Positions 23,246 to 50,200 of a stretch of DNA of 64,000 nucleotides are shown here, piece after piece. The notes under the pieces were generated by a model that was given only the letters and a program-made list of their open reading frames with translations, was not told the origin of the DNA and did no database searches. The position numbers and the translations under genes are program-made. The stretch's first letter is position 1; each line of letters starts with the position of its first letter. This DNA comes from Allacma fusca (Eukaryota > Arthropoda > Collembola > Symphypleona > Sminthuridae): the NCBI GenBank assembly GCA_947179485.1, contig OX359246.1:39597632-39661631 (forward strand). Direction: 5' to 3'.

Positions 23246-23359
23246 AATTCTCATGGGCTGGTCGTGAGATGTGTGTATATTCCTCGGTATCAGAATAGTT
23301 TCGGATTCACCCTACGACATTTTATCGTGTACCCGCCCGAGGTCTACGTGAATAGTAAT
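23246..23359 (+). CDS. ARHGAP21: RhoGAP exon A: start of PDZ domain
   Basis: 38 codons, phase 0 in and phase 0 out. The acceptor is tgttttacag and the donor aat|gtgagtg. It encodes NSHGLVVRCVYIPRY followed by SFGFTLRHFIVYPPE, the PDZ carboxylate-binding loop typical of ARHGAP21/23. No start codon of its own is needed: the frame is open to the acceptor, so an upstream coding exon is expected. Confidence 0.93.
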
Positions 23360-26300
23360 GTGAGTGCAATGGCTTTTTCGGTATATTTTTTAAATTTAAG
23401 TAATCATAGTACATTTTGTATTTGCATGTTTTTCTGTAAGTATAAATGTATAAAAGTATAATCTAAACAGACTGAATGCATGCAAATCCTGTGTGAATCA
23501 TGGACGTATTGTTATTATTTATTGGACACGCTGTAACTTTTGTACTATTTTCAGTCTCCAGACTCGTAATAAAGCCAGGTTGTATGGATATTGTGCATCA
23601 TGGACTTAAGTATGAGATTTGACATGGATTTTCCCTTTCCCAGCACTGTAGCGTTCCTAGCATCCTAGCCCTGCGACGTTATCAGACTGAGAGACAGTAC
23701 TGACGTACATATGTAATAATATAACTGTGATGTATATAGCTTGGAAAATGTTGATAGGAGTTGTTTTTGGTATATTTTGGTATACTTATAATCAGAGTGC
23801 GTGTGTAGTAGACCCAGTCAGGTGATATAGTAATATTATATAGTTACCAATGGCACTACTTGTGTTTTATGGGATGGTAACGTGCATGTAAGTAATTAGT
23901 CATATGTATGTATGTATAAATTTGGGACAATCGGATTTTCTTTTGATTCTATGTAGAGATGTGCGCATGGATTTGATTTCAGTGATTTGTGAATATAATA
24001 TTTTTTGTATTAACTGGAAATAGTTTGTTTGATATAGTATATAAAAATACAGGTAGATATAAGAGTAAGTAAGTACTACCATAAATATGCAATTTGGATA
24101 TTGAAAGTTCAGCCTGGTCCTGTTGGAGGCAGAGGTACATAGGAGATAGATATTACTTATACCTCCATTATTATTATTTTGAATGCCATATGCCATATTC
24201 CTTGCCCTTATTTTTTTTTATGATAGTCATCTTTCTTGGAGTTGTACTATTGGAAACGTAATAATGGTAGTAATGATTGATAATGTAATGATGAAATTGC
24301 TACTTTTTTGGGGATATATATTATGCTGCAGTATTATTTGACTTTGTATTATTTAATTCCGTGTATCGAGGTATCTATGTATATGCTCACACTCAGACAG
24401 ATTCCCAAGTGCTGGTAGTTCCATTGATGGACAGGTAGAGAGGTAGAGAAATAAAGAAAGAGGTGACAATAAAATTGTGTTTTGTACCTGGGCTATGCTA
24501 TGACTATGGGCTCAATGATGACGGAGCCTCTATTGTTGAGAATTATTGTGTTTCTTTTAATTTATGCGTGTGGGCAAGGTAATAATAAAAAATAGAGTCA
24601 TGGGTAGATAAACACATAGCGGTATGTACAAACTGCAATTAGTACTGTTCTGTCTGTCAGTCCCTGCTGTATACCTGTAATAATTAGTCAAGTGTATGTA
24701 TGTAATTATTACATATGTAATTTCAGAGATAGAACATAGTGAAGGAATATCCGATACTCTCTGTTCCCTTTTGTTGTACAATGCTATTAAAAGAGACTGT
24801 TGACAATGTTGACTTGGAAAAGAGAGTTTTCCGCTCATATTTTTGGGTCTCTCGTGGTATGACAGACATTGGTAGATAGATAGTAAAGTGTGCTAATGTT
24901 AGTATTATTATAATTCACAGATTCCCAGTTTGTCAAAGATAGATTGTTTTTTTTTGTTGTTGTAATTATTACTCGTGGATGTTCTCTATGTCAATGCACA
25001 TGTAAGTGGTTGCACACTGATGCATGCATAACGTGTATCGTTCAGTAATTTTTACTAACTGTAATTACGTATGTACGTTTTTTGGGTATCTCAGTTTTTT
25101 TTGTTGAGGATGTATCTATGTATAATTATGTCCTGGTTCCTGCATATAAATAGCTTTTGATGTTTATCATTGAAATCATTGAGGTCACTTGTAATGTTTT
25201 ATTGATCTAGGGAAATAGATTTTTTGTCGGTGGACCAAGTACAGGATTATGTATGTATTGTATCTGCAGGCTCTAGCTTATAAATGAATAGGGGCAAGAT
25301 ATAATGTATATGAGAATTTTTATGTTGATTTAATTCCTGGGACGGCGCTGTTATTTAGTAATCAGCTCTATCCTCATTAAGCTGTGCCTAATGCCTCCTA
25401 TACTGTCTCTACTGTGTGACAAGCGTGATAAATATTTTTTGTGTGGTTGAGAATGTAGTCTTCTCATTTGAGACTCATATATATGTTCCCTTGTACTTTT
25501 ACTGGTTATGAATTATTTCCATGAAGGGAAAGAAGGGGAAAGTACCTAATTAATAGTTAATTATTAGTAATAATCAAGTTTTAAAAATAAAAATAAAATC
25601 AGATGGTTTTATTTATTTTTATTTTTGGGAAATTGTCACAGGATGGGAGTTACACTGGTGAGAGCATCCCACAGTCTAAATTGGGGCAAGTAACTGAGCC
25701 AGTGGATACAATTTTTGTGAAGAGTGTTCGAGAAGATGGACCTGCAGCCCATGCTGGTCTCTGTGTAGGTGAGTGTCCGGTTTTTTGTTTATATTTTTTG
25801 AGATTTATTTTTCTAGCTGTAAAAAATAGTGCTTAAAAAATCATATAGTAATTAGTATAAGTACGTACGTACGTATGTATGTATATGTACAAGCAGGTCA
25901 AATTGTGTATCGTAATTATTTTTTTTCCTGTAATAATTACATATACACAGAACGCAGGTAGGGCTATATAATAAAATTGACCATATTATAATTATCTTTT
26001 AAGTATCAATAGAATTTTTTTGGGGGGAAGGGGGCTCTTATTATAATCGGGGCTTGAAATGTGATATATGCACATTAAATAGATATGTAGTTACACATAA
26101 TATAGGTATATATCCATTGTGTAAACGGTAAGTGCGTGAGAATGGGACCCAGGTTTGTCCAATTATGTATGTATATATTGAGTGTATGTATTTAAATTTA
26201 AATTTTTATATATGGCGAGTGTGGAGTAAATTGATTTTTCAAGGTGTACTTTAATATATTGCATGATATGTGTGTGTTTTTTGTGTGTGTGTATGTTCAT

Positions 26301-27458
26301 GTACGTATCAAGATCTTAGTAATATATTTAAAGAGAACGAGACCGTTACATCTCTGACCATATCTTTTGGTCGGATCTATTGTCAATAATGGGTTACATA
26401 TTATATGGGTTATGTAGGTACTTATTGGAAAAGGATTTTTCAGGAACATTATATCATCCCAGCCGTCTCAACTTATAGAGAGGTATAATTTTCTCCAATG
26501 ACTGAGACGGTATCCTATATGTGCGGGGAAGAATAATAAAGACGTTATACGGCAGATTTTTTCCCTATATAATATTTATATATATTATGTATAAGTATAG
26601 AATTCTATACTGAACAGCCACTATGTACTTATTAATAACATCCCTGACAAACTGACAAAATCTCAGTTGGTTTATGTAAAAGTAGATCGTGAAGTGGTAA
26701 TTTTTCAAGTAGTAATTTCTTCATAACGAAGGCTTGCAATTTTTTCTGGTTTGGTCTTTTTCCCCCATTTTTTTGTTGTTGTTGCTGCAAGGATGTACAA
26801 CGTAGAAACATAATTCTCCTCTGCGGTTTACTTATTACTTATAGAATGAGCTGTGATCATTAGTATTGAGAGATGCAATTTTCTCAATATAAATTGCCCT
26901 CTAAAGCTATTAAAGTAAGGTCTGAGATTATTATTATTATTAATGGAAGGAATTTTTCGCGTACTTGCCATGTATTCATGTTAAGAAGGGCTTCATATGT
27001 AAAGTAGGTATAAGTACATGGGATTCAAAATTGGCGTTGTATTTTTTTTTTCAAACTCGTATCTTTTGAAACATATTATAGTTAAGGAGACGGGGAGAAA
27101 CAGATTGTGGAGGGGGATTTTCTTCTAGTCTAGTAATATTAGTAGTAGTAGTAGTTGTTGTAGGAGTAGTAGTGGTTTAGTAGATAGTATTAATGGCCCT
27201 AATTATGTTTATTATAAGAAAATGAAATGACCCCAAGAAATTTGAAACGATGGGTTATTCCGTGAAATCGCTCATTTCGTCTCCGTCTAATCATGATGAT
27301 TAACTCTGTTTTGGAGTGTAATTTCCTCACGATTTTTCCCTCTCGGACTCTCTTGCCTATCTATTTAAATGTGAGGATAATGTGTGCATAAGTAATTGCA
27401 TGTGTGTGCACTTTTTATTTACGTTCAAGGATGAAGTCAATCGTTTTCAATGGAATTT

Positions 27459-27489
<31 letters not shown>

Positions 27490-30400
27490 GCTCCCTTACC
27501 TCTCGATTTTGCAGCCCATTCTCAAATTTTCCATTGTGTACGAAAGTAGATATAATTAGAATATAAAAATGACTTATTCCTATCTCGGCAAGTATGCAAA
27601 AGAAACCATTGTTATGGTATCCTGTTATAAGTATATGGGCAAGGGTATGTTTTATAAATTTTGGGCGGACTGTGATTATAGATATTTGAAGTTTGAGCAA
27701 ATGTTCATATTAAATGTAGATAGATATGTACAATGTACAATTTCGTTTTTGTGTGAAATATTAACAAATAAGGGAACTGATCTATGCTCACACTCTAAAG
27801 ACATAATTATAGATGGGAATTTGAGGGAAAAACAAGGGCTTGTTTATATATTTTTCATTATTAATGCATATATACAAATTTGTTTAGAATATCCATGTAA
27901 TTACACATGTAAGTGCATGCATATAGTACAATGTATCTCTATATTTTGGTATTTTTGTATGTAGTAATTATTACTAAACGAGTGTCATAATTTTGGAAGT
28001 AGGTGAAATATTATTGAGGGGCTGAATTTTTGATTTTACATTGTGTCCTGTGTCTATTTACATATAAGTGCATATGTATGTTGAATTATTTCGTATTTTA
28101 GGAAATTCAACGTTGGAGTAGATATGATTTCACAGGGAATGGGGACAAGCTCTGTAATATTATTATTTGACTGGAGTATTAATTGTTAGTTTTGAAGGTT
28201 GTTGAGAAATTATTTACTTTTGGAGCACAAACTGTAGGTATGTATATAGTAAGTGGAGCGGAAATTGAATTTGTGCCTAATTATTTGATTCCCCGGAGGT
28301 TCCCTGCCTTTATTTCAGCCTGAGTTTGGTCCGTCAGGTTGAGTACCTATAAAATGTAATTATAATAAATTCTATTCTACAGACATACATGTGTATAATG
28401 TACTATTGTGTGTAAGGAGTGATGATAGGAAGGCGAACATTCCGGACAACAATATACATGCATGTATGAGGATCTGAGGGAAATGATTATTATTATTATT
28501 ATGGAAGTTAGATTTTCCGCTGTTGTACGTATGTATGTATATTATCTTAGAAAGGATCTGTAACAGTATTAATTCCGGTGTTGTTTTTCAATTATTCAAT
28601 TCACTCTCTTATCAGGGGGTGGACAATGCTAGAGCAATGTACGCAAGCAGTACCTACTACCTACATTGTATGTATGTATGTTGAATGTTTTAGTATCTAG
28701 TATCTACATTATATAAAGGCTTATGATTCTTATCAGCTTGTAATGAGCTCCTATGTTCGTAGTATAATTGTGTGTATTTAAGTGTAAATATATAATTATA
28801 CTGTAAAAGGTGTTCAAATTACTTACTTTTAAATCAAATTCAAGTTTCCAGTGAAGTTATTGACATTGACTGAGAGACTGCTTCTGTGGGAGTTTCGTGT
28901 AGGAAAAATAATCATAATTATTATTCTTACTGTTAAAAGATAGGGGAATAATAATGTATTTATTTATATAAATAGTGTGTAGTTAGACGGAGGGAAAATA
29001 ATAGTTTTTTTAATATCTACGTCGCATTCTTCCCGCACATGTAACGTACACGGATATCTATGGCTTTGTGTACATACATAGTTTTCTGATACGAGAGTGT
29101 TGAGGGTTTAGGGTATGAAATAATAATTATTGCTGTCTTGCTCTGCATGTGAATGTGTCTCTCTGTGTGTGTACAAATACATAACAGGATTTTGACTCTG
29201 TAAGTGGCAGGAAGGAAATTGAACTGGAACTCTTGAAAGAATTTAATTATGGATGTTTGTAAGTGTCTACCTATGTACATATGTGCGTGTACATTGTAAG
29301 TACATATATGTACTTATACATACGTGTGTTGTGTATGTACGATCGTGAATCTATTTTTACATATCTTTTGAGACAAGACACTGTTGATACGAAGGAGGTG
29401 TTTGTCCGTGTGCACATACTATGTGTATTGGTGTGACTGTATCTACTTACATATTTGAGAAAGACGTAAACCGTAAGGAAAATATTTAAAAACAGAAATA
29501 AATACTGTTATATTGTGTGAGTGTGTCTGGAATCCGAGTTAGTTCCATTTCCAGTAATAGTGTTGGATTCAAGTAAAAGATGATTGGAGTCTCCTCGTTG
29601 TTGGAGTCTGGACCGAATCCTGTCTTAGAACGGGGCAGGAAGGAAATGAGGATGTGAAATGTGAGGTTAAAAGGGAGATGATAGAAAAGTTATTCCAGGA
29701 TTTATGACTTTTGAGATTTTACACACACATATATAGGTATACACACACAGTCCCTTCTATTTACTATAGGACTTGAGCCCATTGGATTTACATACGAAAT
29801 AGTGTGCAAAAGAGATAAAGACTTATTTTATATAAGTAAGTATAAACAAAAATGCACGGGAAGGAAAATGTGAAAAGCATATGTCACGTTGCCTTCCCTT
29901 GCACTTTGCACGGGGAAAAGGGAAAAGTAATGGATGGGATCGAGGGTCTCTGAGCAGAACACGCACAGTCACACGTTTACCCGTAACTTATAGTTTAGAC
30001 AGTCATGTAATAACGTGCAGGTTCTGTGATTGAAAAATTGAGATGTTGTCACTGAGACTGTGTGAAATATGATTTAGGAAAATATTTGAAGTTGGATCCA
30101 GAAACCATGGAGCAGGCACATAATATGCAAATAGGGTATGTATAGTAAAAAAAAAATCCGGGATACACAAAAAAAAACAAGAAAGGTGTAGACAAGTCTA
30201 ATAATATTGAAAGAAAATTCATGTAAAAATATAGAAATCCATAGAGTTTGAGTCATCCTATCCTACCACAGTATTTTCCTTGGAATCCTCTATAAATATT
30301 GTAAGTTTTTGTTTCTCACGGGAGGGGTCCTTACTCATGTTGTTGATGACACATTGGTTATTATGACATCTCCATTTGTGATGGGGAGAAGATTTGAAAT

Positions 30401-33400
30401 TAGGAGAGGAATTCATTAATTTATTTTGACTCGTGTACTATGTATATGCTCTGGTTGTATCTATGTACGGAGAAAAAGGAAATTTATGGAATATAGGAAT
30501 GTATTTGTTGTGGTGTAGTTTTTCAAAGAAGAATCCGTCTTGATATGTTCTAGGGTTGGGGAATACTGGAATAATGACAAATACTTACATATGTAGTTAC
30601 ATGTAATTATAAGTATAGGTATTTTGTATGGATACATATTTACACATATGACGTAAAATAGTTCTATATAGGCCGAAGCCCTACCTATAGAGTAGGTTAA
30701 AGCAAAGCTGGAGACTGTAGATGTAGGGGATAGTCGTTCATGTAATCGTTCCTAAAATGGAATTAAATACCCGGGAATCCTTCCTCATGCAAAGGAGGGA
30801 TTCCGGGAAATTTGTATGACTTGTATGTTATTGAGCTGTATTTATAGATACTTATATCTACATGCACGGTTATTATGACCATATGTCACTTGTAATGTAT
30901 AGTTCTAATAGGACGGAGTTCCAGGAATTCTCATCTGTGTATATACACTTTCTTATGTACCGAGAGAGAGAGAGAGAGAGAGAGTGATGTATGTATCTAT
31001 GTGTAATCATATGTTTGCATCACTGGTAATGATCGTATGTATCTATAGGTACATGTATATACCCTTGTCAATAAGCCCTGAGCTCTTGGGAAGAAAGTAA
31101 CCATGTAAATGTTTTTTAAACACGTAAATATCTTAATAACATAGCCGACATGAGAAAGCTCCGTGGAGAAGTCCTACATGTGAAGTGAATTTGCTCGGAT
31201 GAACCCCGACATACCGGAACCACCGTAAATATAGAAATAGAAACTGTGTACAGTGCACCTGTGTATCTATCTACATATATATATAAATATATACAGCATA
31301 TATATATCAGCACATACATATGTGCGCGTCTTTTTCTTGTATTATTAAGAAATTGAATTTTACTTGAGAGGGCTCAACTCCCGCTTGACTACATACATAC
31401 ATATATAATGATTTTACAGTTAGATAGGTATGTGTGTGTTTAGTATATCTAGATGATAGATCTCTGTATACTAAAAACAAGGAGGGTGGAATCAAATCCC
31501 CAGTCCTATTTCTGTCCTTTCTCTGATCATATTTGAAAAGACTAGAGGCCATTGTGACTGTCATAGAAACCCCGTAGAAGGAGTTAAATTTAAATGATTT
31601 TCAGGCTGAGACTTTTTATGTATGTATGTATTTGAGGGGAAAGTGCTCCTTGAAGAGGTGTCTCTTGTATCGAGAAGAATCTCTGTGTATGTGTGTGTGT
31701 GTGTATTTAAGTCAGTGCTAAAGTGAGGATTGTGCTCACTCTCTGTGATGTGATGCTTAAATTTAAATCTCTCTCTCTCTCTCCCTCTCCCTCTCCCTCT
31801 CTTGGTCTCTCTCCCATGTTCTCCTCTGATGTTTGTAGGATAGAGAGACAGAGACACGGAGTCACATCAGCTACTCCTGTGGTTGGGGAAAGGGGGGTGA
31901 GGATTAAGTAATTTGGTTTCGTAAATGAAGGATGTTATTTTCCCCGCAAGAAATTCTTCGGTCTTTTAAATTGGATTTTGTCAAGTAATTTACTTAAGGA
32001 CGGCACATTCCTCCCTACGACGATGGGACTGCTTCCGTTTTGAGTTTTGACTATAATATGATGATATACTTATATATGTATGTAATTACATATGTATGAA
32101 ACTATTTACTCTTAAAGGCCCGTATCAATGGTTTGTACTTTTACACTGTAGTATACATAATAACTCCTTCAAGGGAAACGACCAAATTTTGGCAAGGTTG
32201 AGGATTTGGTGTGGGAATTCTCTCTCTCTCTCTCTCTTTTTAAAATATTTTGTATTGTAATAAGTACAATCATATGTACAAAGAGAAACTGTAATTATTT
32301 GTATTTATGGTTTCAATTTTCAATGATGTGCATTCATACAGAGTTTCTGACTTACTCTACCTCTTTTATTTTTAAGGAAAAATTCCTCCGCAAAAAATGT
32401 ACAGATAGTACTTTTTTTGGACATTTTTCTTTGACAATGGGTCACACAGTGGTGTCTCATGAGGACAGTACTTGTACTTATGTAAATCTATGTATGCTGT
32501 CCACGTTGGACGGACCAAGTGTCACGTTGATATTTCCCTGCACATTTTTTCTGTGTAGGTTGCATCTTTTAGGAATTACACTCTAGTTGTACATACAGTA
32601 GATACAGATATGTAAGTAGTACATTTAAAGACAAATAGAGGAGATGCTATAGATATGTTGTCTTTTAGTCCTTTAACCAGGACAGTAGGATTCTCTCACA
32701 CACAACACTTTTTTTTTGCCCCGGACTTGTGCTCCTCATACAGACACGGTAAAATCATTTCAACTATAAATGACACTTTGAAATACCACTAGACTTAAAT
32801 TGAAGTGAAGGGAAGACGCAAGTAGTCTTTTTAAAAGTCAATGGAATTTTGTAGTTTTATGCCTTGAAATGTTTGAGCATGTAGTATCTATATATACATA
32901 CATATATGTGTATCTATCTGTAGTTGAGGACTCATCGTGAAATAAGTATATGAGCCTCAAAGTCACTATGTATATTTATTTATTTGCTGTACAGTAAGTA
33001 TAGTAGGGAGAGATGCTCCTGCTCTTGTTTACGTTTATCCTTCCTCTCTACTTGTATTCCTTTTGGATGGGGTCTTCCTTTTTGCCATTTATTTTTCCCT
33101 GGGAAAGTGTACCACATTTTATTGTATTACTGTTATGGCTACTTAAAGTTAGCAAAATAACTTGGAATATAGCCTGGATGACTTTTCCAGACGTGTAATA
33201 ATAATATCTCCATTGAAGGCACGATATATCATTTGTTTTATAGAGATATGTATCTAAATAATTATAAGGGTATATATTATATAGGTAGGATATACTTATT
33301 TTTATATATATAGGTATGGTATAGAATTATATCCACTTGCAAAACCTCACTAGGGGCTTTTACACTACTAGTGACTGACAGACTGACTGAGAGTGAGTGA

Positions 33401-35838
33401 GTTTGAGCTGAAAGCCTTGTAGTTGTAAAAAAAACGGTGTAATAGTAAAAGTCATGTGCTTTTTCTGTAGTAGTGTTTTTTTCCCCAGCCGGGCATGTAA
33501 ATAGAGAAACTTTTGTGTAGGAAGAAGAGACTTGTACTTATAGATTGTAGTAGTGTACTGTACTGTATAGATATGTAGATAGAACCTTATATAGTATCTA
33601 TCTACTTTAATACATGGAGGTATAAATTCTAGGTATTTACATTTCCTTGTACTATAGTGTAGGGACTAAGTATATCTAAGTATAGGGAGAAAAGGCTTAT
33701 GAGTACTATTATGTTGTTGTTGTAGGAGCATACATATGTATGGTATGTATGTAGTGTAGGATGAGATGGTAGGAGAGCCTCTTTCTTTCAACTTTTACAT
33801 AAGTACTGGTTATGTATTCCTATATGTATGTATCTATGTATGTCCGCAATATACATAGATACTATAAAGGTATCGTGTAAGACTACTACTAAAAGGTTTG
33901 AGAGGAAAAAAGAGAGCAAGCCCAAATGGCTTTAGTTGGTTTCGTAAGGACCTTTTGTTGACAGTACGGGAGTTTTGCTCAAGAAGTTTGTATGAAAAGG
34001 AGGCTTCTTCTTCTTCTCTCCTCTCCTAAACTACTATTATTATCATTATTATTATTGTTATTGTTATTATTAATATTAATATTACTTATTATATAAAGTT
34101 CCCGAGATTCCGCTCCAGAGTAAGTGCATGGTCACTCTCTTAAATTCTGTGTATAATAATAGTTCCAGTCATCAGCATCATATCAGCATCTCATCATGGA
34201 CGATAGTACAATAATGTGGACTACAGTCAGTAGTAGTTGCAATTTTGAGTCGGTGTGAACTCTCTCAGTCACTCTCTCTCTCTCTTTGTGACTCTCTCTC
34301 TCTGTGACTCTCTCCCTCTCTCTCTCTCTCTCTTTGTCTCGGTGTCTCTTTCAAGAGAATTAGTTATGGAACACCTGATGGTGAAGATCTTAGATGAGGG
34401 GGATTCAGAGTACTCCTCTCGGAAATTCTCATGTAGTCCTGAGTCCCCTTGGAGTGCTCCGGTGAAGTGTCAGTACTGGGAACCGGACTTTACACCTTCA
34501 AATACTAGTAATACTAATAGACGGAGGAGTGAAAATATCTCAGGGAAATTAATTGGTTGTTACTATGATGGTGGGGCTAGTAGTAGCACTACTACTACTA
34601 CTACTACTAGGAGGGATTCAGAGTGGAGGGACTCACTTCGGAGGAGTAGTCAAGGTCCCTTGACTACTCCTGGCAGTAACAATAGTACGAGTCGAAGGAA
34701 TGAGCTGACAATTATAAGGGAGAAGAGGACGAATAAAAATAATGTTCAAGTGATCCCTTGTGTGAGGGTGGCAAGGTGCTGGAGTGTTCAGGAGGATAGG
34801 AATCATTGTCTCTTGAAACATTTTTATGTCCCGCCGGCATCTAAGGATCGGACCAGAGCTTTGATTATGGTGAGTGACGGAATGTCAAAAATTGTGAATG
34901 GACTTCGAGTACCGAGTACACGTACATACAAAAATGAGGAGACTCCTTGACAGGAAGAAGAGTAATTAATAATACATTAAAAATGTATGTACATATGTAG
35001 TCGTTGTGTACGATTAGGTTCATGGTAATCACTCACGTATTATTAATAAAGACACGGCTGTTGGGAAATCAACGGGGAGCAGATAATTTAAATGAGGACG
35101 AAAGGGAAGAGAGGTGTTTATGTAGGATGTGTGTGTGTGTGTGTGTGTGACAGTCTATGATGTGGACATGTACATGCATATAATTATGTATGTACGTAGA
35201 TGTGTAATAATTATTATACATAAGTAAGTACTTATATCTACTTATAATTATTTATGTGTAGTTTTTGTTTAGTCCTGTAGCAGTGCTCCTCCGACATGTT
35301 GAAAACGGAACAGAAGAAGGGAAATGAGAGAAAATGAGTGATCTAATCGGAGCTCTGGAATTGGGTCAAGAGTGTAATGACAATAATAACTCTATTCTAG
35401 CGGGTGATACGATACACTTACAGTAAAAGTACAAGGAGGAGTAATATAAATGGTATTAATGGAAATTCTACACTTTTACAGAAACGTGTGGATTTCCTTT
35501 TAAGTTCTGAGAGTGTGTGTGTGTCTGTGTGTAATTACTTATAGAATCACATTTCCGATCCTTTGGACGCGTACTCACTACTCAGTACTCGTGCTCACAT
35601 AGTATGTTAAGACTGGATACATGGGACGTAGGCTTTTTGTAACATTTGCAAATGTTTTTTTGTTTACAACATAATGTCAGCTTTGAGACGTTTCGAATCG
35701 GTTCTATTTAGGAAGAAGGTCGGTATAAATGAACCAGCTTGGTAGGATTTACATATAGGGTGAGGTACATTTTTTTATGTATGTAGATACGTGTATAATT
35801 ATTACATTTGTAAATACTTACTTGACTTTTACTCAACG

Positions 35839-35871
<33 letters not shown>

Positions 35872-37199
35872 ATCTCTCTCTCTCTCTGGGGATCTTCAAA
35901 GTGTCCGGCGTTTCTCCTTTGCGGTGTATAGTTCCGAGCCGTGGAGTAGATATTTTAGTAATAAGGGATCGTACATATGTATGTATCTACATGTAAAGGT
36001 ATATAACTGTAATTAAGCAGTATTTCTGTGCGTGTAATAGGTATCTAGTATCTACATATCTGAATATTCTTTGAATGTATTTTTATATGTGTAAACAGTA
36101 GTTTGGTTATTTTAAGATAAGATTTTAAGATCTTGAGAGTTATTTATTCCCTGAGGGTTTTCAAAGGGCAAAGTTCATTCATTATTTAGGGTATTCAAAT
36201 ATGTGGGGAAGAAATGTTTGTGTGTATTGGTTCTTGATTTCGGTATTTTACAATTTTGTGTGTGTCAAATATTACTTCTGTTATTATTATACAGATAATT
36301 ACATATGTATGATGGGATTTGCTGAGTAAATTTGGTGATATGATGTAACGGTCTTGTTCATCTCTGTGAGAGTGTGTGTGTGTGCTTGTGTGTGTGATAT
36401 TTGATAATAGGCTAGGAGATAAGGAAGATTTATTTGCTTAATATTTCAAGTATCATGGAAATCAGGGATCCCTTTCGAGGGATTTTATTTTTACTTGTAA
36501 AGCACAAATATTAAAGTAGTTATGTTTGATATGTTCGGTGTATATTTGGTATTGGTATCATTGTATGTATGTATGTGTAAAAGGATTATTGGTTGTATCT
36601 AATATATTTGCAATGCGGTTTGATTTTTATGGTATGTTAGAGCTTGAAAGGAATTTATAATTTGAAGCTACATATATTTAATTATTGTAGATATTTACTT
36701 AGATTTACTTATAATTTATTATACATAAACATACTTACATATAAGTATAGTGACATATTTTTGCTAATGATTTGAGAATTGAAATTTGAAAATTTGATTT
36801 TTTATTAATTTGGTTTGGTTTTTGCCTTTGTTTGTTTTTTTTTTTCATATGTTGGTTTGGCTATAATGTAAACCTCTCTCTGACACTCTGGATCGGATTC
36901 GCCTTTGCAATTACCTGCCTGAAAAACTCTGGTTTGCTGCCTGTTTTATGTTTTTGAAACGAAAATTTTGCGTTGAAATGTTTTGACTTGGCTCCATACT
37001 ACGCTGTACATCCCCGATTTTCTGTTTGGCCTGGATTTTTTGTTTTTTAAAAAACATCCATGAATTCTTGATGGACTGATGGTTGATGACGATATGAATC
37101 TCCGTGGCTGTATTTACTATACTACCAAAACTACTATTACCACTACTACTACATTGCTGTGTTCTTACTCCCTGATTTTTATTTGAACTCCTTCTCTCT

Positions 37200-37239
<40 letters not shown>

Positions 37240-40200
37240 GTCTCCTCTGTGTCTTTCTCCACATACATAAACTTGTTAAAAAATGTCGGTCATGATGGAA
37301 ACATCACTCGACATGGCTGCTGGTCGTATCGATGGGATGTGCGCTCTTTCAGGAGATCGTGTTGTAAGCGTAAATGGAGAACCGATTGTCGGGAAGAGCT
37401 ATGATCAGGTGGTCCACCTGATTCAGACATCTGCCTCGACACTATGTTTGGAAGTGACTCCTAAGCAATACGATACACTCCAGCTGGTAAGTTCTCTCAT
37501 GATCATGCCTTCCTCTTTTTTTTTTTTTTTTTTTGCAAACCATTTTGTTTTATTTTTGAGCTTATTTTTATTTTTATTATAGCGTAATCTTCTTTTGCAT
37601 TACATATGCATTATGGTGCATATTATGGTATCTATACATATATGTCTGAGTAATATATACATGAAATTGTATATATGGCATGCAGTATAGAATTTAAACT
37701 GTAAAACTGTTGTTAGTTTGTAGAAATAGAAAGGTATCCACAGATACTACTTTTAGTTTGCGTGTATAATAATGTCCTTGTAGTATCCAATTGGATATAG
37801 CATGACGTTTGGTTTCATTATGGTACTCTTTACTTTGAGAATGACGCTAATTTGATTTACTTGTAGTTACCAAAAAATATGTAGATACTTGAGAGAAGCA
37901 TAATACAAATAATATGCGCTTGTGTGGATTTCTGAATTTAATTATTAGAGTTGTCTGTATAGACGATATTGTTGGATAATTTGTAATTAGAGCTAATTAT
38001 TTGAACGGAATGTCCTGTGACATTTGTGTAAATGAACATATATCTACTTTTAATTAAATCATATTATGTGTTCGTAGGAGTTGCTGAAATTTTTTATTTG
38101 CTGTAGTAGTGACTTAGTGACGGTGTGACTGTGTGACGTCCATATCGGGTGGTGTCTGCCAAAGCCAAGTAGTATTTTGACGTTTGTATGTGAGAGGAAT
38201 TTATTTGATTTTGTATGATCTCTCAAGGTAGTTTTTTCCTTCCTGTGACAAGTTTTGGTCTTATACTGTAAAGAAATTTTGTGTGTGTGTGTCTGTGTTT
38301 TGCCTGCCTGCGTTACACACAATGTAATTCTTTGTGTTACTTTTTTTTTGGAGGAGAGTAAAACGTAGCAAATGAGAATTGTTATGGATTTTTTTTTGTG
38401 TGAGGACGTGAGACACACTTAAACAAATGACCTTACAACATAAAAGAATTGGTTGGATGCTGAGAAAATTCAAGGTGTGATTTGATATTTTTGACTTTGT
38501 TGTGTGACAAGCTGACCAGAGATATAGTATGTATAATTTTAGGTAGTTAAACGTCTATATATGCACACTTACAGTAATGATGACAATTTTTACTCCTAAT
38601 TTCACCATACAATAAGCACATGTACGTGTTTCGCGACTTCTGTTAATTTTTTACACTTTTTTTTATACCTATATATTTGCCAACTCTCAACCTTGTACAG
38701 TACATACAGGCATGTACAGCAGTAATAGGCTTGAGCCTTACTAAAAAAAATGTGTGTGTGTTTTAATGTGTGTAATAATTTTTATTTGATGAGGGATGTA
38801 GAGTTATTTTTTGAATCTAGTTATTTAATGTGACATATTTTGTAAACCTTTATATTATTCCTTTCTGGGGTGGAAATGACACTTGTGTCGTAGTGTGACA
38901 GACTTGACAAAATATTGACATGTTTGACCTTTCCTTTTTAAGCAAGTATAAGTAAGTAACGCTTCTTTGAGAGTGACGACTGACTTGAAATTTTTGTTTG
39001 TTCCTCGTTTTCATTTTTGCGAATAATTTTTATGGCTGTACTTAATGGTTGAGATTTCTGTTGAAAGAAAATACTTTATAAAGGAAAATCTGGCAGAGGT
39101 TAGTCTTAATATGGGCATTAACCTCGTTTTTTTTAATATTTTCTTTCCTACTACCTTTTTCCGCTCATTATAATTTTTTTTATTTGAAGATGATTGAAAG
39201 GAATTTACTGATTTAATTCGGAGTCCTGAATGCATTTCCTTCCTATAATCACCTCAGTTTCCGTTGGGATAGTTGCATTTTCTTTTGTTTGAGGTCTATT
39301 TTGCATTTTTGGATCAAGTTCAGTGCAGGAACTGATTCAGTACAAATATATATATAAATATAATTATGCAGTTGCTACTTACAGTCAGGTATGGATGTAT
39401 TTATGTCTCTAATATCCGTGCCTATGTAACGTGCTATTGTTTACAGAAATAGTGCGCAGTGCTCATTAAAAGTGTAACGTGTTTTCTAAGTTTCTTAAGG
39501 CGACGATTTACTATTCATGTATTCTTTCCCACTCCTCTCTCTCTCCTCCGCCGACTTAAAGTAGATATCTAAATCTACAATATGTATAAGTATATAAGTA
39601 GATACTTACAATTTTAATAATAATTCTTGCCCTGTAGCTTCTTCACATGCAACCTGCAATCCTTCATCCATCTACATTCTTACAAACAAGCATTTGGGAG
39701 ACTGCTGCATTATTTAATAAAATTACGATTATTTTAATTTTATTCCTGAATGAAAAAAATTTTAATAATGGAACGGTCCAAGCTAAAATATCATTGAGAT
39801 TTGCAAAATACTATGTCATTTTTTTTCATGGATACAGTCATACTTTAATGAATGTTTTGGAATTACAAAGAATTTAATGTTTAATATTATTAACATGACT
39901 ATGAGGACTTGTGTGTTTTGCAAAAGAAATTGTAGTTTGACTGAAATACCCAAGATTGTTCTGTGTTGGCTGTCAAGGAGCTTTTTATTGAGTCAGCTTA
40001 TATGAGATTTTTTTTGTTTAAATTACCTATGAATTGTGTTTTTCCTTTGTTGATTACATATTTGAAATGTGATGAGGCTAAGTGGATTTATTTCTATGAA
40101 TTGGCCTGTAACTCATAAAAGTTAATTAATTTATACAGGATGTAAATATTAGGAGTGCTTATGGATGGAGGATATTTTGGGGTTGTTAATAATTTGTTGT

Positions 40201-41267
40201 GAATAGATAGTATCTATGTAAATGACTTTTTTATTTCCCTGTTTCTCTTGGATAATGACTCCTTTTGTCCTGTTTTGCATTTGACTTTGAATTTGAGTGC
40301 GGCTTAATAAAATGATGTACAGGCGTTCTGGTTCTTTCCGTGTGTGTAAGGTGCAGAACACATTATGAATAAATTTATAGTATTTGGTTGGTCCTGACAG
40401 GAATGCAATTGTAATAAATTATAATAAAGAGTTAGGAAAAATTGGGGAACTGGGTGCTTAAGTGTTGTTGGACAGTGTTGATGAAAGGTGAGGGATAATT
40501 CCGTGAGATTTGTTTTGTAGCTGTGTGGGTTATGCTTACACGTTATATAAGTAGATACACACTATCTACTCACAGTACTCACGGAGCATTACGATACTTA
40601 TTGTATCCTAATAAATAAGAAGGAGTAAATGAAGATGAGGTAGGATGACTACTTGCTTAAAAAAGATGGTGTAGCGATGACGATATATACAATTTGTGTG
40701 GACGTGGAGGCAAATACAGATATGACGATTCTGGCGATGATGAAGAGCTTGAAAAAGTGTACAAGAAGAGCGAGTGGAAGGGAGCTGATTTGAAATTATA
40801 ATTAATACTAAATAATAGTGAAAAAATCAATCTTGTTAATGACAATCTTTATGAGTGCTAAGCTAATACCTTTTAGGTGTCTCTAAAAGAGGGTAACTCT
40901 TTCCTAGCACGCTGGTATCATATGTGTACATTATATTTCAAGTGACATGTCTTTGTTAGGTACTTGGTAACTCTTCTTCTTAAGGAGGAATAATAATTAT
41001 ATTTAGGCATGCGGTTATATTCAGGCTAATGGTTATTCATCAAATGTGGTTATTACTTGTTCTAATCCTCCTCTTTCCTTGTTGTTTTGTCATTTGAAAT
41101 AGTTTTATGAAGAGAAGGCCTACCGCCCAGAAACAAATCAGCGTCCATCCTCCATCGCACCTCCAACGATTAGTAACAATAATAGTTACGGCGTGACCAC
41201 AAATTCCAATCACGTTGTTTCTATCCCCGTAAAATCCTCATTACTAGTGCAACAACAACAACAACAT

Positions 41268-41298
<31 letters not shown>

Positions 41299-44200
41299 CG
41301 AAGCAGAAGCAGAACCACTCTTCGGATCCTCCATACCCCAATAACTATCATCAAGTTCATCCTCCGCGTGGGAAATTAAATCATCAGCAGTTGGTAGTGA
41401 AGAATAATCACAATTTCTACCATCACTACCACCAACAACACCAACAACATCCTCATGGTCCGGGTCAACAAGGCTACTCCTCCTCAGGTCCCCTAGCAAG
41501 TTACAACTCTTCCTATGAATCTGTTTTCTTGCCAGATTCCCATTCAAGTTTGAATTTGGGGGGAAATATGTCGGGGAATTCCACCTTCCAGCCAAGTTCC
41601 CAACAATCACAGCAAGTGGCAGGTCAGCAACAGCCCAAACCATCCCAAACCCCACCCCAGCTCCTATCACATCTACCCCGACCTACCCCGTACAAAAGCA
41701 CGGTGGTCTGGTCTCACCTAAGTTCCAATCAACAGCAACAGCAGCAACAACAACAACAACATCAACAGCAGCTACAGCAATTACAGCAACAGCAACAACA
41801 ACAGCAACAACAGTTGGTGCAGCAACAGCAACTACAGCAGCAGCAACAGCAGCAATTGCATCATCAGCAGCAGCTCCAGCAGTATCAACTGCAACAGCAA
41901 CAACTAGCCAAATACTATGGAAGTAAAAGTCATCAACCGCAAACGTATTATCCCTTTAATCAAAGGACAGGTGTGACACGGGGGATAGTAGAAGTTCCTA
42001 GCAATAGTAATGTTCCCAGTAGTAGTAACAACACACAGAGTGGGGGTGCCAAAAGTCATGAGAGTATCCTAGCCGTGTCCGCCCATGAGCATGAGAGTTC
42101 TGGAGGGAATCGTTATGGAAGTATGGAGTGCTTACCCACATCAGGGGCGGACGCTCTCGGGTCCGGGATCACGGGGGAACCCTCCTGGAAAAATATTGTG
42201 GGATATCGGTACAGTATTAGCACCGGACCGGACATTGACTACCGGAGAGAGAGTACAATTTCCTTGCCGCCGGCAGCTTACAACAATGGTAACCAATCAT
42301 CCGTTATTTCAGGTGTAAATGTGGTGGGTGGGGGACACTGTAAGGTACCTTTGAAGGACATGGGTGGCTATAGTTTAGACTACAGTACTGTAAATAGTGA
42401 CATGGACCCTAATACTTTAGGCTATGAAGTCAAAATGGTGGATCGGATACGGAGGAGCACGGAACAGAAAGAGGAGTTCCTTCGCCGACCCAACCAGCCC
42501 ATGCTCTGGGCCCCCATCATACCCAATTCCGCCGCTGCAGCGGGGTTTCCTAAAGAATTATATGCTCAACCTCAAAAATTTCAGAAAGTTCCATGGCCAC
42601 CAGCAAATGTGCTAAGTAGTAGTGGGGGAAATCTTCAACAAAGTGCTTCCACTCCTGTGGCTAATTCCGCAGCAGCGGGCGCTGTGGGAACGAACCCTAA
42701 TAATAATATACCTAGGGCATCTAGTGCAAGTGAGTCGGGACGCTTTGCGGATTCAGTGAATCAAAGGTCAAGTATGAAAAATATTAATCCGGACGGTAGT
42801 GGTAGTAAAATTGGGGATTGGAGCTTGTCGGACTATGGGAGTGCAAAGAACCGGCTAACGGTGGTGGGGAGTGGGAAGTTACATTGTGATCCGCCGCCGG
42901 ATTGGAAACCTCCCCCATCAGTGATTATTCATACTACGGGAGGTGGGAGTAGTGTCCCGGGTAGTCATAGTCATGAATCCAGTACGACCCTTAAGTCAAA
43001 TAGTGGCACGACCTCAAACGATGAGACTGAATATTTCCTTCAAAATCGCAATGGTAAGTTAATGATGCTCTACGTCACATTTACTTATAACTGTTTGTTT
43101 TTTTGCTACACGTCTGTATTTATTTGCACACATTTGCATGGTTACGGTTACGTATAATTATGTGTAGTGTGTACATGTACATGCATTTTTATGTATGACA
43201 TGTATGAGAATATAATTTACGGGTTTTATCCTATACATATGTCAAATATGCTTTTGTAAACAAAAATTCTTTTGCATTCTTCTTGTTAATAACACTTTTA
43301 TTTATTCGCTTGAAATATTTGCTATTTTAAGTACATATATTACAGATTTTCGTATTAAAAAAATTATATAGTTTAAGTTTATAGTTTCAGCTACTACTGC
43401 GTTATAGATAGCTGTATGTATTTTTGAGCCTAAATTCATTGTTTTTTTTTGGTTTAGTGTAATTAATTAATTAATTAGGTATGTAAAAATTGTATCATTT
43501 GTTTTTGACTGTTTTTTTTTGTTCACGGAGAAGCCTTTGCATTTGCACAACCTAATCTAGACGGTACGTCACCGAGTAGCTTGCCGCCTTACACTGGTGC
43601 TCCCGTTGTTGTTGTAAATAATCCTTGTAATAACGTCTTGACGACGAGGCCTACTCCGCCAAATTCACTTTCGTTACGACCTGAGCATAGTCATGATCAT
43701 GAACATAAGAAAAATAAATCTTCTTCTTCTTCCTCTTCTAACTCATCTGGAGCTAAGCACTCGAGGAAGCCACGTTTGCCTACAAGATTAGGTCCTTGTT
43801 TTTCTTTTAGATATTCTTAATTCTTTGCTATCTGACTTATTACTTTTATGTATATCTACTTTTTTCTTGAGTTTACTGCAATAATAATTCAACTGTAATC
43901 CATTTCTCATGGAGGAAATACAATTTGCGCTCTTTGCAATTTCGAATCCATATTCGCATGTTTAGAAATATTTTTTTTTTGTATTTATGAAATATTTGGG
44001 TGGGCGGATATTTTTGCGGAAATATATATTGTAATATATTGCACTTTGTGGAAATCCTGTTTTTTTTTGTTTGATGTGAATTTAAGTTTTAATTTTTTAC
44101 ATAGCACTTTATGTTGTATGTATATATTTTGTTTATATGTATCTGGGACTTCAAGCTGTTTATATAGTGTTGTTTTAATGTTGGTTTTTTGAGTTTGAAA

Positions 44201-47200
44201 TTTTGTTTGCAAATTTTACGCCTGGATAATGGTTTCTGATTTTTTTTAACTCAATGAATGAATGTAACGGTTCGATTATTTTGAAATGAATTGGAGAGTT
44301 TTTTTTATATATAATAATATCAATGTGTGTTGTTTTTTACGCAACCTGTTGTGCTGCAGATGCTGATGTGATATTACGAAAACGCGAGAGTGACCCTGGT
44401 AAGGACCTCCTACATAACAATTAACAATGACAATGACTCCTTGTAGCGGAAACTCTGTATATTAGATGTCTAGAAACAGTAGAAACTCATTGTTGTAATT
44501 TTCTGTTGCGTATTCATTGGAACGTAAAACATATATTTATGTAACGTGGATAGAGACAATTTTTTTGCCTTTAGTTGGGGTGCAGATTTGCAAATATTCT
44601 GTACTACATATAGTTGTAAATGTGTATATACCTATAGGTAAATAGTTAATGCAATTATTGATGAGGAGATGATAAATACTGTATCCGATTTTATATTGAA
44701 TGTATATTTTCTTATAGTAGGAATGTGTTTATCATGTGTGTACATTTTTTGGATTGATTGAATATATGAACTCCATGAAAATTTGTAGAGTCGCGATGAA
44801 TTTACTAATCCTTTTTGTAATATGGTTCCAGACTACGATAACGACCGATTAGTACGAAGAGTATCGTACCTTAAAGCGACCTCATCCCCGATTGATATGG
44901 AGAGAAAGAGTTCCAGTCCTACATCCCCTACGAAAAGGTAAATTTTTTTATTTTGTTTTTTACTAACAAAAACTATCAGTCAAAATGTATCATAATCTAC
45001 GTGTACACACATTTAATAGACATTAGGCATCTCAAGGGTTTTTTACTCATATATTTTTACACATATACTTATATAAGCATATTCTAGCACACAAATTTTG
45101 ACACACATTCTTGGTCATAAGTTCCACTTTTTAACTATTATGTGAAGTTACTAATTACAAAATACTACATTGTAGAATTTCCATTAGTTTCCGGGAGTTT
45201 ATAATTAAGTAATTATTACTTTTGTTGTCCAGTAAATATTACCGAGCCGACCACGACTATAACATACGGCCTTAAAAATGATAATAACCTAGTACAACAG
45301 TAGTGTACGACTCCTAGAGATATGTACACACAGTACCTACTAGGGTTGGTCATAACGATATAACGATACGATATTATCGTTAATATCGTCCAATTTGGAG
45401 GAACGATATGCTACGATAATTCTCGTATATTTCACACGATATATCGGGCTACCGTAATATCGTTCTAAGGAGGTAGAATAGTCAAAAATTGCATACTGTG
45501 GCCATCTGACGTATTTCATGTCCTAGAAAGTGTCATATGAACCGGAAGGAGTGGTCAAAACCGTTCAATTCAGTTCAGTAAAAATTCATTCATTTCATTT
45601 CAGTTCAAATTTTTGAATTGAACTGAATCGAAAACAACGGTTTCCGCATATAAACTTAAAGAATACGCTTTGTAGACACGAAAGCAGTATTTTCCAAGCG
45701 CACAACAGAAGGAAGTTAAACTAAGGGCACAGATCCTTACTTTTAGGATCTGTGCTTGTAAAAGGTAAATCTGTTGCTGAAATGTTTGGGGCAGAATGAA
45801 TCGTTTGAACTTTAATAAATTCAAGGAAAACGATTCAATTTAATTCAATGTTATGAACTGATTGAGTTTCATCTTAAATCGAAAAATTAGTGAATTGAAT
45901 TGAACTGAACCGAAAATTTCCAATTCAGAATTGGATTAGTCCGAGTACTAGAAGGAATTGTTAAACAGACAGTTGGAAAAGTGAATAAGTGAAATTGAAG
46001 CATTATTTCGGCTTATTTATATTGCTTATGTAATTTTTAATAAGTTAAATACTTATTGAGTACTGTTACTGCTTACTTTCATTATTATTTTAATTTATAT
46101 TGTATATCGTTTTTATCGTTCTACCATATCGTTATCGGGATTATTTTTGTGAACGATAACGATATTAACGATATTTCGAAAGGTAACGATATGACCAACC
46201 CTAGTACCTACTGAAAAGTTTACACTGTAGATAACCCATTTAGAAAGAATGAGGAATTTATTATTATTAAAAAATTGGCAGTAGTGTCCTTTTACTTAAT
46301 CACGGTTTTTCGATTATGATTAAACTATATGATATTATGATATGAGTAGCATTTGAGAGCCTTAAACATGATACCTGATGTATAATATAAATTATAATGA
46401 TAACGATGAGTTACCATGCAGTTTACCATAGCATCATACTGTACATTGTTGTAACTTGTATGAGAGCAATATTATTCCGTTTATGAAATAAACCCGCCGT
46501 GTTGAAGTAATGTAGTTGATATATGTACCTATAATTGGTTGATCTTATAATTTTTTTTAAATAATGATTTTTCATGTTTGAATGTAAAAATGACTTTTGA
46601 GAAGACAGAGGGAGAATAATATTTGTTTTCCAGCGTATGTAAATAGCTTTTGGTTACTGAATCCATGCTTTAAAATCACAAGCTTCAATGTCCAAGAAAA
46701 TTCCTCAATTATTATTTTTGATAATTTTTTTTAAAATTAAGATGAATTTGTTTATTTTTTTGGAGTTATAAAAGAATTAATTGTATTCTGTTCGTGAGAG
46801 TCTGACTAGCTATACTTTTTCTTGTTTTCTTTTTTAACTATGACGTTGACTTGTGGGGCATTACCTCTATTCTTATTATTGTTTGGTTCAGTTGCGATGA
46901 TGGTGATGCGATTGTGGTGTTACCCCTGCCTACTGCTACTTGTACTGTTCCTTCGTTGCGTAAGTCGACGACGGATCCTGGGACGAGTCCCGGACGACGT
47001 CGAAGTATGGCCAACAAACTCAGCTCAGATTTTTTACACAAAGGTCGAATCGTCCGACTCAAACAATTTTTCGAGGAGCGTACCCAACCTTCTTCCCTCT
47101 TCAAATTTCATTCCAATAGGTCAATTATTATTTTATTTTTTTTTGCAAAGGACGAGTTATATACAACTATGAGTTTCCCAACGTATTATTTTTTTTGCTT

Positions 47201-50200
47201 TGTATTATTTGAATGAGTACAGTTACTTACAAATTTTTGGAAATAATCCCAGTGCAGTATAAGTATACCAAGTTTTGCAATACCTTTTTATTTTGATGAG
47301 CCATACTAATTAACATGACATTTTTGTGATTTTTCTTATAGTCTTGAGATGCTGCATTTTAGTTTTTTTTTTAGATTACACAGTAGTATTTATTTTTTCT
47401 TTTCTTTTTTCTTGGTTTAATAATCCCCTTTTTATTATTATTTTGAGTCTCGTAAACCCGCAGTAGGCTCAAGAGTGTAATGATTTCCGAGTGAGTTTTG
47501 TTTGGACACTTGAGTTGTTTGGTTTGTAGTGTATGTAGTTAATCATAAATTGATTTTGGGAACAGTCGCACCATACCTAACCTGAGACAGATTTAAAGAC
47601 AGTCGACAGTCCTCGAGTTTGTCATTATATACTAATCATTCAAGTTTACTTACTGACCTCATAATTATTATTATTACCTTGGTTCTGTAAAGTTTACTCA
47701 CCCAAACATTAAAAACTAAATCGTACAAATACACAGTACATATAGGCAAATACGCACTCACACACGCACACTATTAATTATACCTACATGAAATAATTCA
47801 CATATATGAGCATTCCGGTACGCAACTTACGAATATTAGGTAAATAAATAGCTTAGCTTACGGATTATTATTCTCACAACTGTGCTTTTACATCTCAGAA
47901 GAAAGGGTAATTCATTACACATGCATCAGTCACTGGTCCAGGAATTTAATTTTGCGCCAGTTTAATAAGGAGTCTTCTAGAAAAAAGTCAGACATCCTTC
48001 CCCCCTAGGCTAGGAATGTTTCCGTAGGATTTACGCCGTGACAAACCTTATTTTATCCCGGACATTATGCGTATATGTGACGTAACCTGCGTGTGTGGGG
48101 GATGCAATGGAAGCATATTCCAGAGAGATTTTTTTTATATGACCGCTATTACGCACTGTGTGATCCTGGCACACAAAATCCAAACGCATGTTTTTCCACG
48201 CTTGTTTATGCGTACCTCACTATAAAAGTGTCATATGTGGATGTGCTTCCCCTGATCTTATATAGAGGTACAGCAGTTACCGGTTAGCTTCATTTGTACC
48301 CTACCTTCGAACATTAAATGAGCGAAGTTGTAGCACACATATTTTGATTTTATTATAGTAACATGCTGATATGTAGAAATCAGTTATTATTACTAATGTG
48401 AATACATACATACGGTGGTGCTTAATAATAATACTCTGCTGACATGTACATATCTATGTATAACTAATGTGTCAGTTATCAGTGATTGAAGAAGCTTTAA
48501 AAAACTAGGGAGAAAGTTGGTGTACATGTTATTATTGGTCAAAATGGGTCTACCGAAACATTTTCATTTTGGACATTACCATTCCAAAACGTATCATGTC
48601 ATAGCAGAACCAAATAGGTAGATATATAATTATTGCTCAAGTTTTTCGTGTGAAAGTAATTTTTTGATAGTTTTTAAACCAAGAAATTAATTAATTTAAT
48701 GAGATACCGATTGTGGATTGAAGTGTGGAATAATAATTTATAATTTGTAATTTCCAATTTGGGAATAAACGTATAGCAGAATGTTTTGCGTGTTTAAGTT
48801 GTTTATGCTATGCATACAAAAGCTATACATAAGTATAAGTACAGTGGATTTGACTTTGGTATTTTTTTTAAAAGTGTGATGTTAATTTTTACGACTGATT
48901 TCCTGATGTAATGTAAAATTTGTTTGCCTCTTGTTCCAGTCCTACAACTGAGTTTCGACATTTCGGCTCTTTCCGCTCCGAGAAGAGTCCTGATGACTCG
49001 GAAATCATTAAGGATGGTCCTGTTCATTTTAAGGTCCGTGCCAGTGAGAGCAAGGTAAGAAAAATGAGTCAATATTTTGCAGAAGAGTAGATTTTGAATA
49101 GATGTAGTAAAATGTAGTGTTGGGTCTAAATGATGAGTATTTAGAATTCAGTAAAGTTGAGGAGTTATGTATCTATTATTTTTTTTTACTAAACATGTAC
49201 AGAAAGTGGGCTATTACCGTTCCTGGAGACAAGGTTGGGCTCAAATCCGTCGTAGTGGATGTTTGTACTTGTCGAAGGAGCGAATCACGAAGGACTCGAT
49301 CTCAGGGATGGAGGAGAATGCTGCAATATTATGTGTGGGTTTGAAGGATGGGATTTCTATTGATCCGGCTGAGGACTATTCAAAGAGAAAGCATGTCATA
49401 CGACTCAAAACATGTTCCTCAAATTCAAACAGTCCTAGTGGTGGAGCTACTGGCTCTTCGTCTACGACGATTGTACCGGTACAAGCCAATGTGACATTAA
49501 TAACATCCCCTCATGCTAGTGCCTCAACGGACAGTCAAAATCCTTCTTTGCTGAGTCAAGTAGAAATACTTCTCCAGGCAGAGGACCCTTCTGAAATGTC
49601 AAGTTGGTTGAAGGCGCTCCAGCAGCAGCAAGACAACAATAATTATTACAATAGTGCAAATAATAGTAATAGTAAAAGTAACAATAATGCCTCTGCCAGT
49701 AACACTAGTGCCACGAATGAATTGGTAACACCCAAGTCCTCCATTCTCAAGTCAATTTCCAGTGGGTTTCAGTCAGTATCCTCCTCTTCAACAACCTTAG
49801 CTAACAATCATCATTTAACTGTGAACCAGCAGCACTTAGGAGGTCCGAATCCTACCTCGCCAAAATCAAAAACTTGGAAGAGCAAAGTGGCGAAGCAACT
49901 ACAGAAAATGCATATTCCAAGTGGGTCTTCGAGAAGTAACAGCACAAGTGGTTATAATCCGCAGGGTACAATTCCCGAAAGTGGAGCTACATTCGGTGTG
50001 CATTTAGAGGATTGTCCTGTGACTGAGGCCAATCCTTCCGTACCAAGGGTCTTGGAATTTTGTATAAACACTATTGAGACCCGAGGGTTGACGATGGTGG
50101 GAATTTATCGGATTCCTGGAAATAATGCAGCTGTGGCTGCACTCATGGACTCCCTTAATAAAGGGAATGAACCCAACCCTGATCAAGTAAGTGACGACAG

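Follow-up and report, generated by a model that had tools for sequence, protein, structure and literature searches.

The stretch of DNA analysed here, a window of 64,000 nucleotides from the springtail Allacma fusca, carries an ARHGAP21/23-type RhoGAP, a polarity gene with PDZ, PH and RhoGAP domains. The window spans C8:39597632–39661631 of the assembly; for the genome of this species PMC10427803 gives the accession PRJEB53479 and mentions that RNA-Seq data exist. Matches to all three domains bear out the preliminary description of this DNA, which had called the gene a RhoGAP. PDZ exon B (25642–25768, plus strand), which ends in phase 1, has a match in human ARHGAP21, to its PDZ domain (PDB 2yuy, E = 9.3e-6), and PDZ exon C (37353–37486, plus strand), which is entered in phase 1, is matched in its frame by PDZ models of Pfam (E = 2.1e-5 and 6e-5). 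The two exons are separated by an intron that had been put at 11.6 kb and measures 11,584 bp (25769–37352). Further along, exon D (41103–43053, plus strand) is entered in phase 0 and encodes long glutamine-rich tracts; an exon at 49206–50186 (49.2–50.2 kb) has Pfam matches to both PH (E = 7.6e-8) and RhoGAP (E = 8.3e-9), and the exon after it matches RhoGAP at E = 4.9e-36. Among the best candidates scored, the PH-bearing exon resembled one other place in its own genome, with 42% identity over 52 residues. The minus strand of the window carries exons of an AMP-binding enzyme (59143–60003, Pfam PF00501) and more coding-like stretches at 61014–61298 and 62910–63188, as well as a 62-codon coding-like stretch at 36965–37150 (LLR 9.0, corrected score 0.04) that lies in the same intron of the RhoGAP.

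Wholly inside this intron, between the end of exon B at 25768 and the beginning of exon C at 37353, is an open reading frame of 194 codons plus stop (34366–34950, plus strand), which we treat as a candidate for the coding part of a small gene nested in its host. As previously described, the frame is complete and translates to 194 residues from start to stop; it is also open upstream of its ATG, back to 34249. The ATG at 34366 has G at −3 and G at +4, which agrees with the good start context attributed to it, and a CT tract lies just 5′ of the frame. The accompanying claim that the composition is not that of a microsatellite is right only in part, as the frame contains a run of seven ACT codons and further patches of Ser/Thr/Asn triplets.

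Directly after codon 168, in phase 0, we found the strong donor-like GTGAGT that had been pointed out before (34870–34875, plus strand). By a metazoan donor matrix it scores 10.25 bits, a value reached by five of the 915 GT sites in the intron, this site counted in, and it is as strong as the nine donor sites of the host gene, which score 5.3–10.9 bits. Use of this donor would make 34366–34869 (plus strand) a first coding exon of 168 codons and would leave 26 codons 3′ of it (34870–34947, plus strand). The phase arithmetic that had been proposed also holds: joined to exon C at 37353, the donor gives ATG GAG ATC GTG TTG TAA and hence a stop, and joined to exon D at 41103 it reads on in frame.

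Around the frame are several motifs that could serve as transcription signals. A TATATAAA at 34090–34097 (plus strand) is a possible, weakly indicated core promoter, and an AATAAA at 35045–35050 (plus strand), 95 bases past the stop, is a possible and equally weakly indicated poly(A) signal. Both had been listed earlier and both are present, but they carry little weight because they are common in the window, with 9 and 57 copies, respectively, on the plus strand. If transcription starts at the TATA motif, three ATGs (34128, 34196 and 34214) precede the one at 34366. At the edge of the CT tract stands the hexamer TCAGTC (34265–34270, plus strand), a weakly indicated initiator-like element; on the plus strand it occurs once in this intron and 14 times in the window. 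The G+C content falls from 0.45 ahead of the stop to 0.25 over the first 60 bases past it and is back at 0.43 over the second 60. Confined to one 60-base bin, this drop marks no clear end of a gene and does not tell a single exon from a spliced one.

Searches for relatives of the frame

A search of the springtail's own genome (a 392.7-Mb assembly) by DNA returned only one other match, to 38 bases of the triplet run. By protein, the next match among the best candidates scored had an E-value of 2.13, and no full-length second copy or paralogue was found. The best Pfam match had E = 0.069, with 13.2 bits against a cut-off of 27.2, and no PDB chain matched at E up to 10. No relative turned up in prokaryotic and viral contigs either, a result that says little given that they are an unlikely place for a springtail protein.

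Three other identities were considered and set aside. A mobile element or repeat is not supported: the genome searches gave no second full match, and Pfam gave no element domain. For an RNA gene, no Rfam family reached the gathering score within 25000–45000. The third, a half-copy of the PDZ domain, was not adopted as the main reading. The segment 34768–34836, which encodes residues 135–157, resembles host PDZ exon A (23261–23335), and a GTGAGT in phase 0 follows both. This likeness was noticed post hoc, its score of 30 was reached in 50 of 2000 shuffles, and our scan of the plus strand between the frame and exon C showed no coding-like stretch that could replace exon B.

The predicted product has a mass of 22 kDa, a pI of 9.45, a net charge of +9 and a GRAVY of −0.93; it is rich in Ser, Thr, Asn and Arg and contains several Arg-Arg-x-Ser sites, which may be phosphorylatable. 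AlphaFold, run on the single sequence, gave a mean pLDDT of 32.5 and no confident fold, which is uninformative in itself. The product is probably disordered, and the most that can be said is that it would be a disordered, basic, phosphorylatable protein.

Coding statistics

Taken together, we consider it moderately likely that 34366–34950 codes for protein. The frame is longer than simple chance would give: 194 codons were never reached when the local 760 bases were dinucleotide-shuffled 2000 times (maximum 160) or when the whole window was block-shuffled 60 times (maximum 171). Of the 37 stop triplets counted over the region, none lies in frame 0 and all are in the other two frames, and this is still so for the 23 stop triplets that are left when the three patches of Ser/Thr/Asn triplets are excluded. 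Once 14 codons around the Thr run are taken out, the frame has a period-3 ratio of 6.1, which was matched in none of 630 noncoding windows (maximum 4.1) and lies within the range of seven host exons (2.5 to 16.6); the part after the Thr run alone gives 5.55, again matched in none of 467 noncoding windows.

Codon statistics learned from the host gene point the same way. A model trained on eleven trusted host exons, with a correction for base composition, gives the 168-codon part a score of 0.024; not one of 381 noncoding windows had any frame as high, and 5 of 36 exon windows lay at or below this value. When the correction was omitted, 3 of 1562 noncoding windows equalled the frame. Scanning the window gave 49 listed stretches, eight of which, the frame among them, had both an LLR of 25 or more and a corrected score above zero; the other seven were six host training exons and the minus-strand stretch at 62910–63188. 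The codon use and the Ser/Thr/Asn-rich make-up of the frame resemble those of host exons, and the support from this model may amount to recognition of that make-up.

A sample from elsewhere in the same genome (twenty 10-kb stretches, 200 kb in all) contained 17 ATG frames of at least 168 codons. Eight had a Pfam match at E ≤ 0.001, from which it appears that genes and mobile elements of this genome commonly have frames of such length; the other nine are unproven as genes. As a separate observation, six kinase-domain matches with equal scores recur every 2,141 bases at C8:49982416–49993648, outside the window, and form a tandem array.

Models built from such other genes do not favour frame 0. 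One trained on five of the 17 frames ranked the 168-codon part fourth of six frames and found a frame as high in 100 of 381 noncoding windows, and it also separates host exons poorly. Later classifiers used 13 of the 17 frames together with two AMP-binding exon pieces of the window; the four frames omitted were a reverse transcriptase, one with DUF1759, one of glycine-rich repeats and one of the two in L022. Ten kinase stretches were added in a test against 792 noncoding frames, and seven of the eleven trusted exons made up the host class. Without the host gene, frame 0 scored −1.93, a value equalled or exceeded by 175 of the 792 noncoding frames and not exceeded by 18 of 256 coding windows, and the classifier favoured another frame, one with 23 stops. 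Adding the host gene to the training lowered the count to 25 of 792, with the 23-stop frame still ahead. Position contrast alone, again without the host, left 790 of the 792 noncoding frames as high, by a measure on which host exons also do poorly (AUC 0.68).

Other features of the frame are similarly awkward for a coding sequence. Even under the host-trained model its second half of 84 codons comes only second among the six frames, and in uncorrected scoring one minus-strand frame with 15 stops beats frame 0 per codon. Second-position G amounts to 0.28, higher than in any of 22 comparison stretches (0.12–0.24). Masking the triplet patches yields a period-3 ratio equalled in 19 of 642 noncoding windows, which is marginal, and the first 66 codons alone carry no such signal, their ratio being equalled in 127 of 819.

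The frame could be read as noncoding, that is, as G-rich, triplet-rich intron DNA made of degenerate ACT/AGT/AAT tracts, whose stops happen to fall into the other two frames. The indifference of models from other genes, the abnormally high second-position G and the large share of the periodicity that comes from triplet patches all speak for this reading, as do other frames of 120–153 codons in presumed noncoding parts of the window, while the length of the frame, its avoidance of stops outside the patches as well as within them, its periodicity and the host-trained codon statistics speak against it. We hold the noncoding reading to be a real, if doubtful, possibility, and a stronger one than the preliminary description had allowed; chance as an explanation is weakened but alive. 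Such statistics could fit a young or fast-evolving protein, and they could equally fit degenerate triplet-repeat DNA.

The sequence past the donor

If the frame is coding, the 26-codon tail past the donor bears on whether it is a single exon or the start of a spliced one. The tail is open, and its LLR was equalled by 25 of 16,334 noncoding stretches, 3747 of which were open (scoring an open stretch required at least 18 codons outside amino-acid runs). In shuffles of the tail, 3 of 3000 were open with a corrected score as high. Its host-trained corrected score is +0.117, whereas the continuations past eight host donors into their introns all score below zero, from −0.15 to −0.60. The tail is coding-like by host-trained codon statistics only. 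The tail alone shows no period-3 signal, its ratio being equalled in 351 of 1025 noncoding windows, though this is a weak test on 78 bases. In the classifier, 35 of 396 noncoding windows were as high as the tail when the host was part of the training, and 166 of 396 were when it was not.

Mainly because these post-donor codons are coding-like under the host-trained model and the eight host-intron continuations are not, a nested gene of one exon fits somewhat better than an isoform in which the PDZ domain is swapped. The preliminary description had put forward the isoform and named the one-exon gene as its competitor; the phase arithmetic and the donor on which the isoform was built are sound, but it is not the best fit.

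Nested gene and alternative exon readings

Our preferred reading, a tentative one, makes 34366–34950 the coding part of a small single-exon gene nested on the same strand between PDZ exons B and C. A promoter in the 34.1–34.3 kb stretch would start transcription, translation would begin at the ATG at 34366 and cover 194 codons until the stop at 34950, and the transcript would end past the AATAAA at 35045. That this gene is transcribed and translated, where its transcript starts and ends, and that it has a function are all things we infer from the sequence.

An unlikely but coherent alternative is the isoform, in which an internal promoter gives rise to a first exon at 34366–34869 that is spliced to exon D at 41103, yielding a RhoGAP minus its PDZ domain and plus 168 new residues. 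The strength of the donor and its fit to the phase of exon D are what such an exon would have, as are the Ser/Thr/Asn-rich make-up and the host-like codon use, and the tail that follows is not coding-like when the host is kept out of the training. Among 330 GT sites inside trusted host exons, only 2 match this donor in strength, which is again in favour of the isoform; however, that rate (2 in 5811 bp) leads one to expect about 0.2 donors this strong in 585 bp of coding sequence, with one in three of these in phase, and for this reason the donor is not decisive. The isoform must also skip exon C, since joining it gives a stop, and it leaves the frame open, and coding-like under the host-trained model, beyond the point at which it should end. 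We rate as improbable a broader proposal, according to which a springtail-specific internal promoter exchanges the PDZ domain for a basic, phosphorylatable N-terminus and so moves the action of the GAP and PH domains on Cdc42 to places other than the one to which PDZ would guide them, with the same exon, when read through, doubling as a small independent gene. More improbable still is a role of the frame as an alternative last exon, or a cassette, of the host, with exon B spliced into the frame 5′ of its ATG and the transcript ending at the AATAAA at 35045, so that the PDZ domain is cut. The frame is indeed open 5′ of the ATG, and two AG sites there would let exon B be joined in frame, at 34358 or 34364 as the exon start, but as acceptors they score −1.3 and −6.8 by an acceptor matrix, against 6.0 for the acceptor of exon C, a score reached by 2 of the 681 AG sites in the intron. 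The same matrix gives the host acceptors B, PH1 and D only −0.6, −2.2 and −3.4, near the −1.3 of the site at 34358. The good context of the ATG would, in a last exon, be a coincidence.

Intronic genes and first exons that swap domains are both well-known kinds, and the finding is thus of local value: the nested-gene reading would mean that a polarity regulator of this springtail may contain a small gene. It would gain greater importance if junction reads showed a PDZ-less form of this Cdc42 regulator in springtails. Alternative first exons that have internal promoters and remove an N-terminal domain are likewise well known, and our limited literature search on ARHGAP21, PDZ and an alternative promoter found no paper. 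Like such exons, the frame has its own ATG and a phase-compatible donor and is a candidate internal exon of this type; unlike them in general, its post-donor sequence is coding-like under one model.

The kin of the host gene are ARHGAP21 and ARHGAP23, RhoGAP19D of Drosophila and PAC-1 of C. elegans, and the host itself has PDZ, PH and RhoGAP domains; for the 194-codon frame, unlike these kin, no PDB chain or Pfam family gave a significant match. The springtail host has a PH domain, whereas RhoGAP19D is said to be without one (PMC7927664). A loss of the PH domain in the fly lineage is possible. Genes within introns are reported to make up about 6% of Drosophila genes (PMC3786989). The Drosophila gene 2mit lies in timeless2 on the opposite strand, whereas the springtail frame is on the same strand as its host, has no known relative and is only putatively transcribed; common to 2mit and to the frame, in the latter case as a candidate, is a small protein-coding unit that lies wholly inside one intron.
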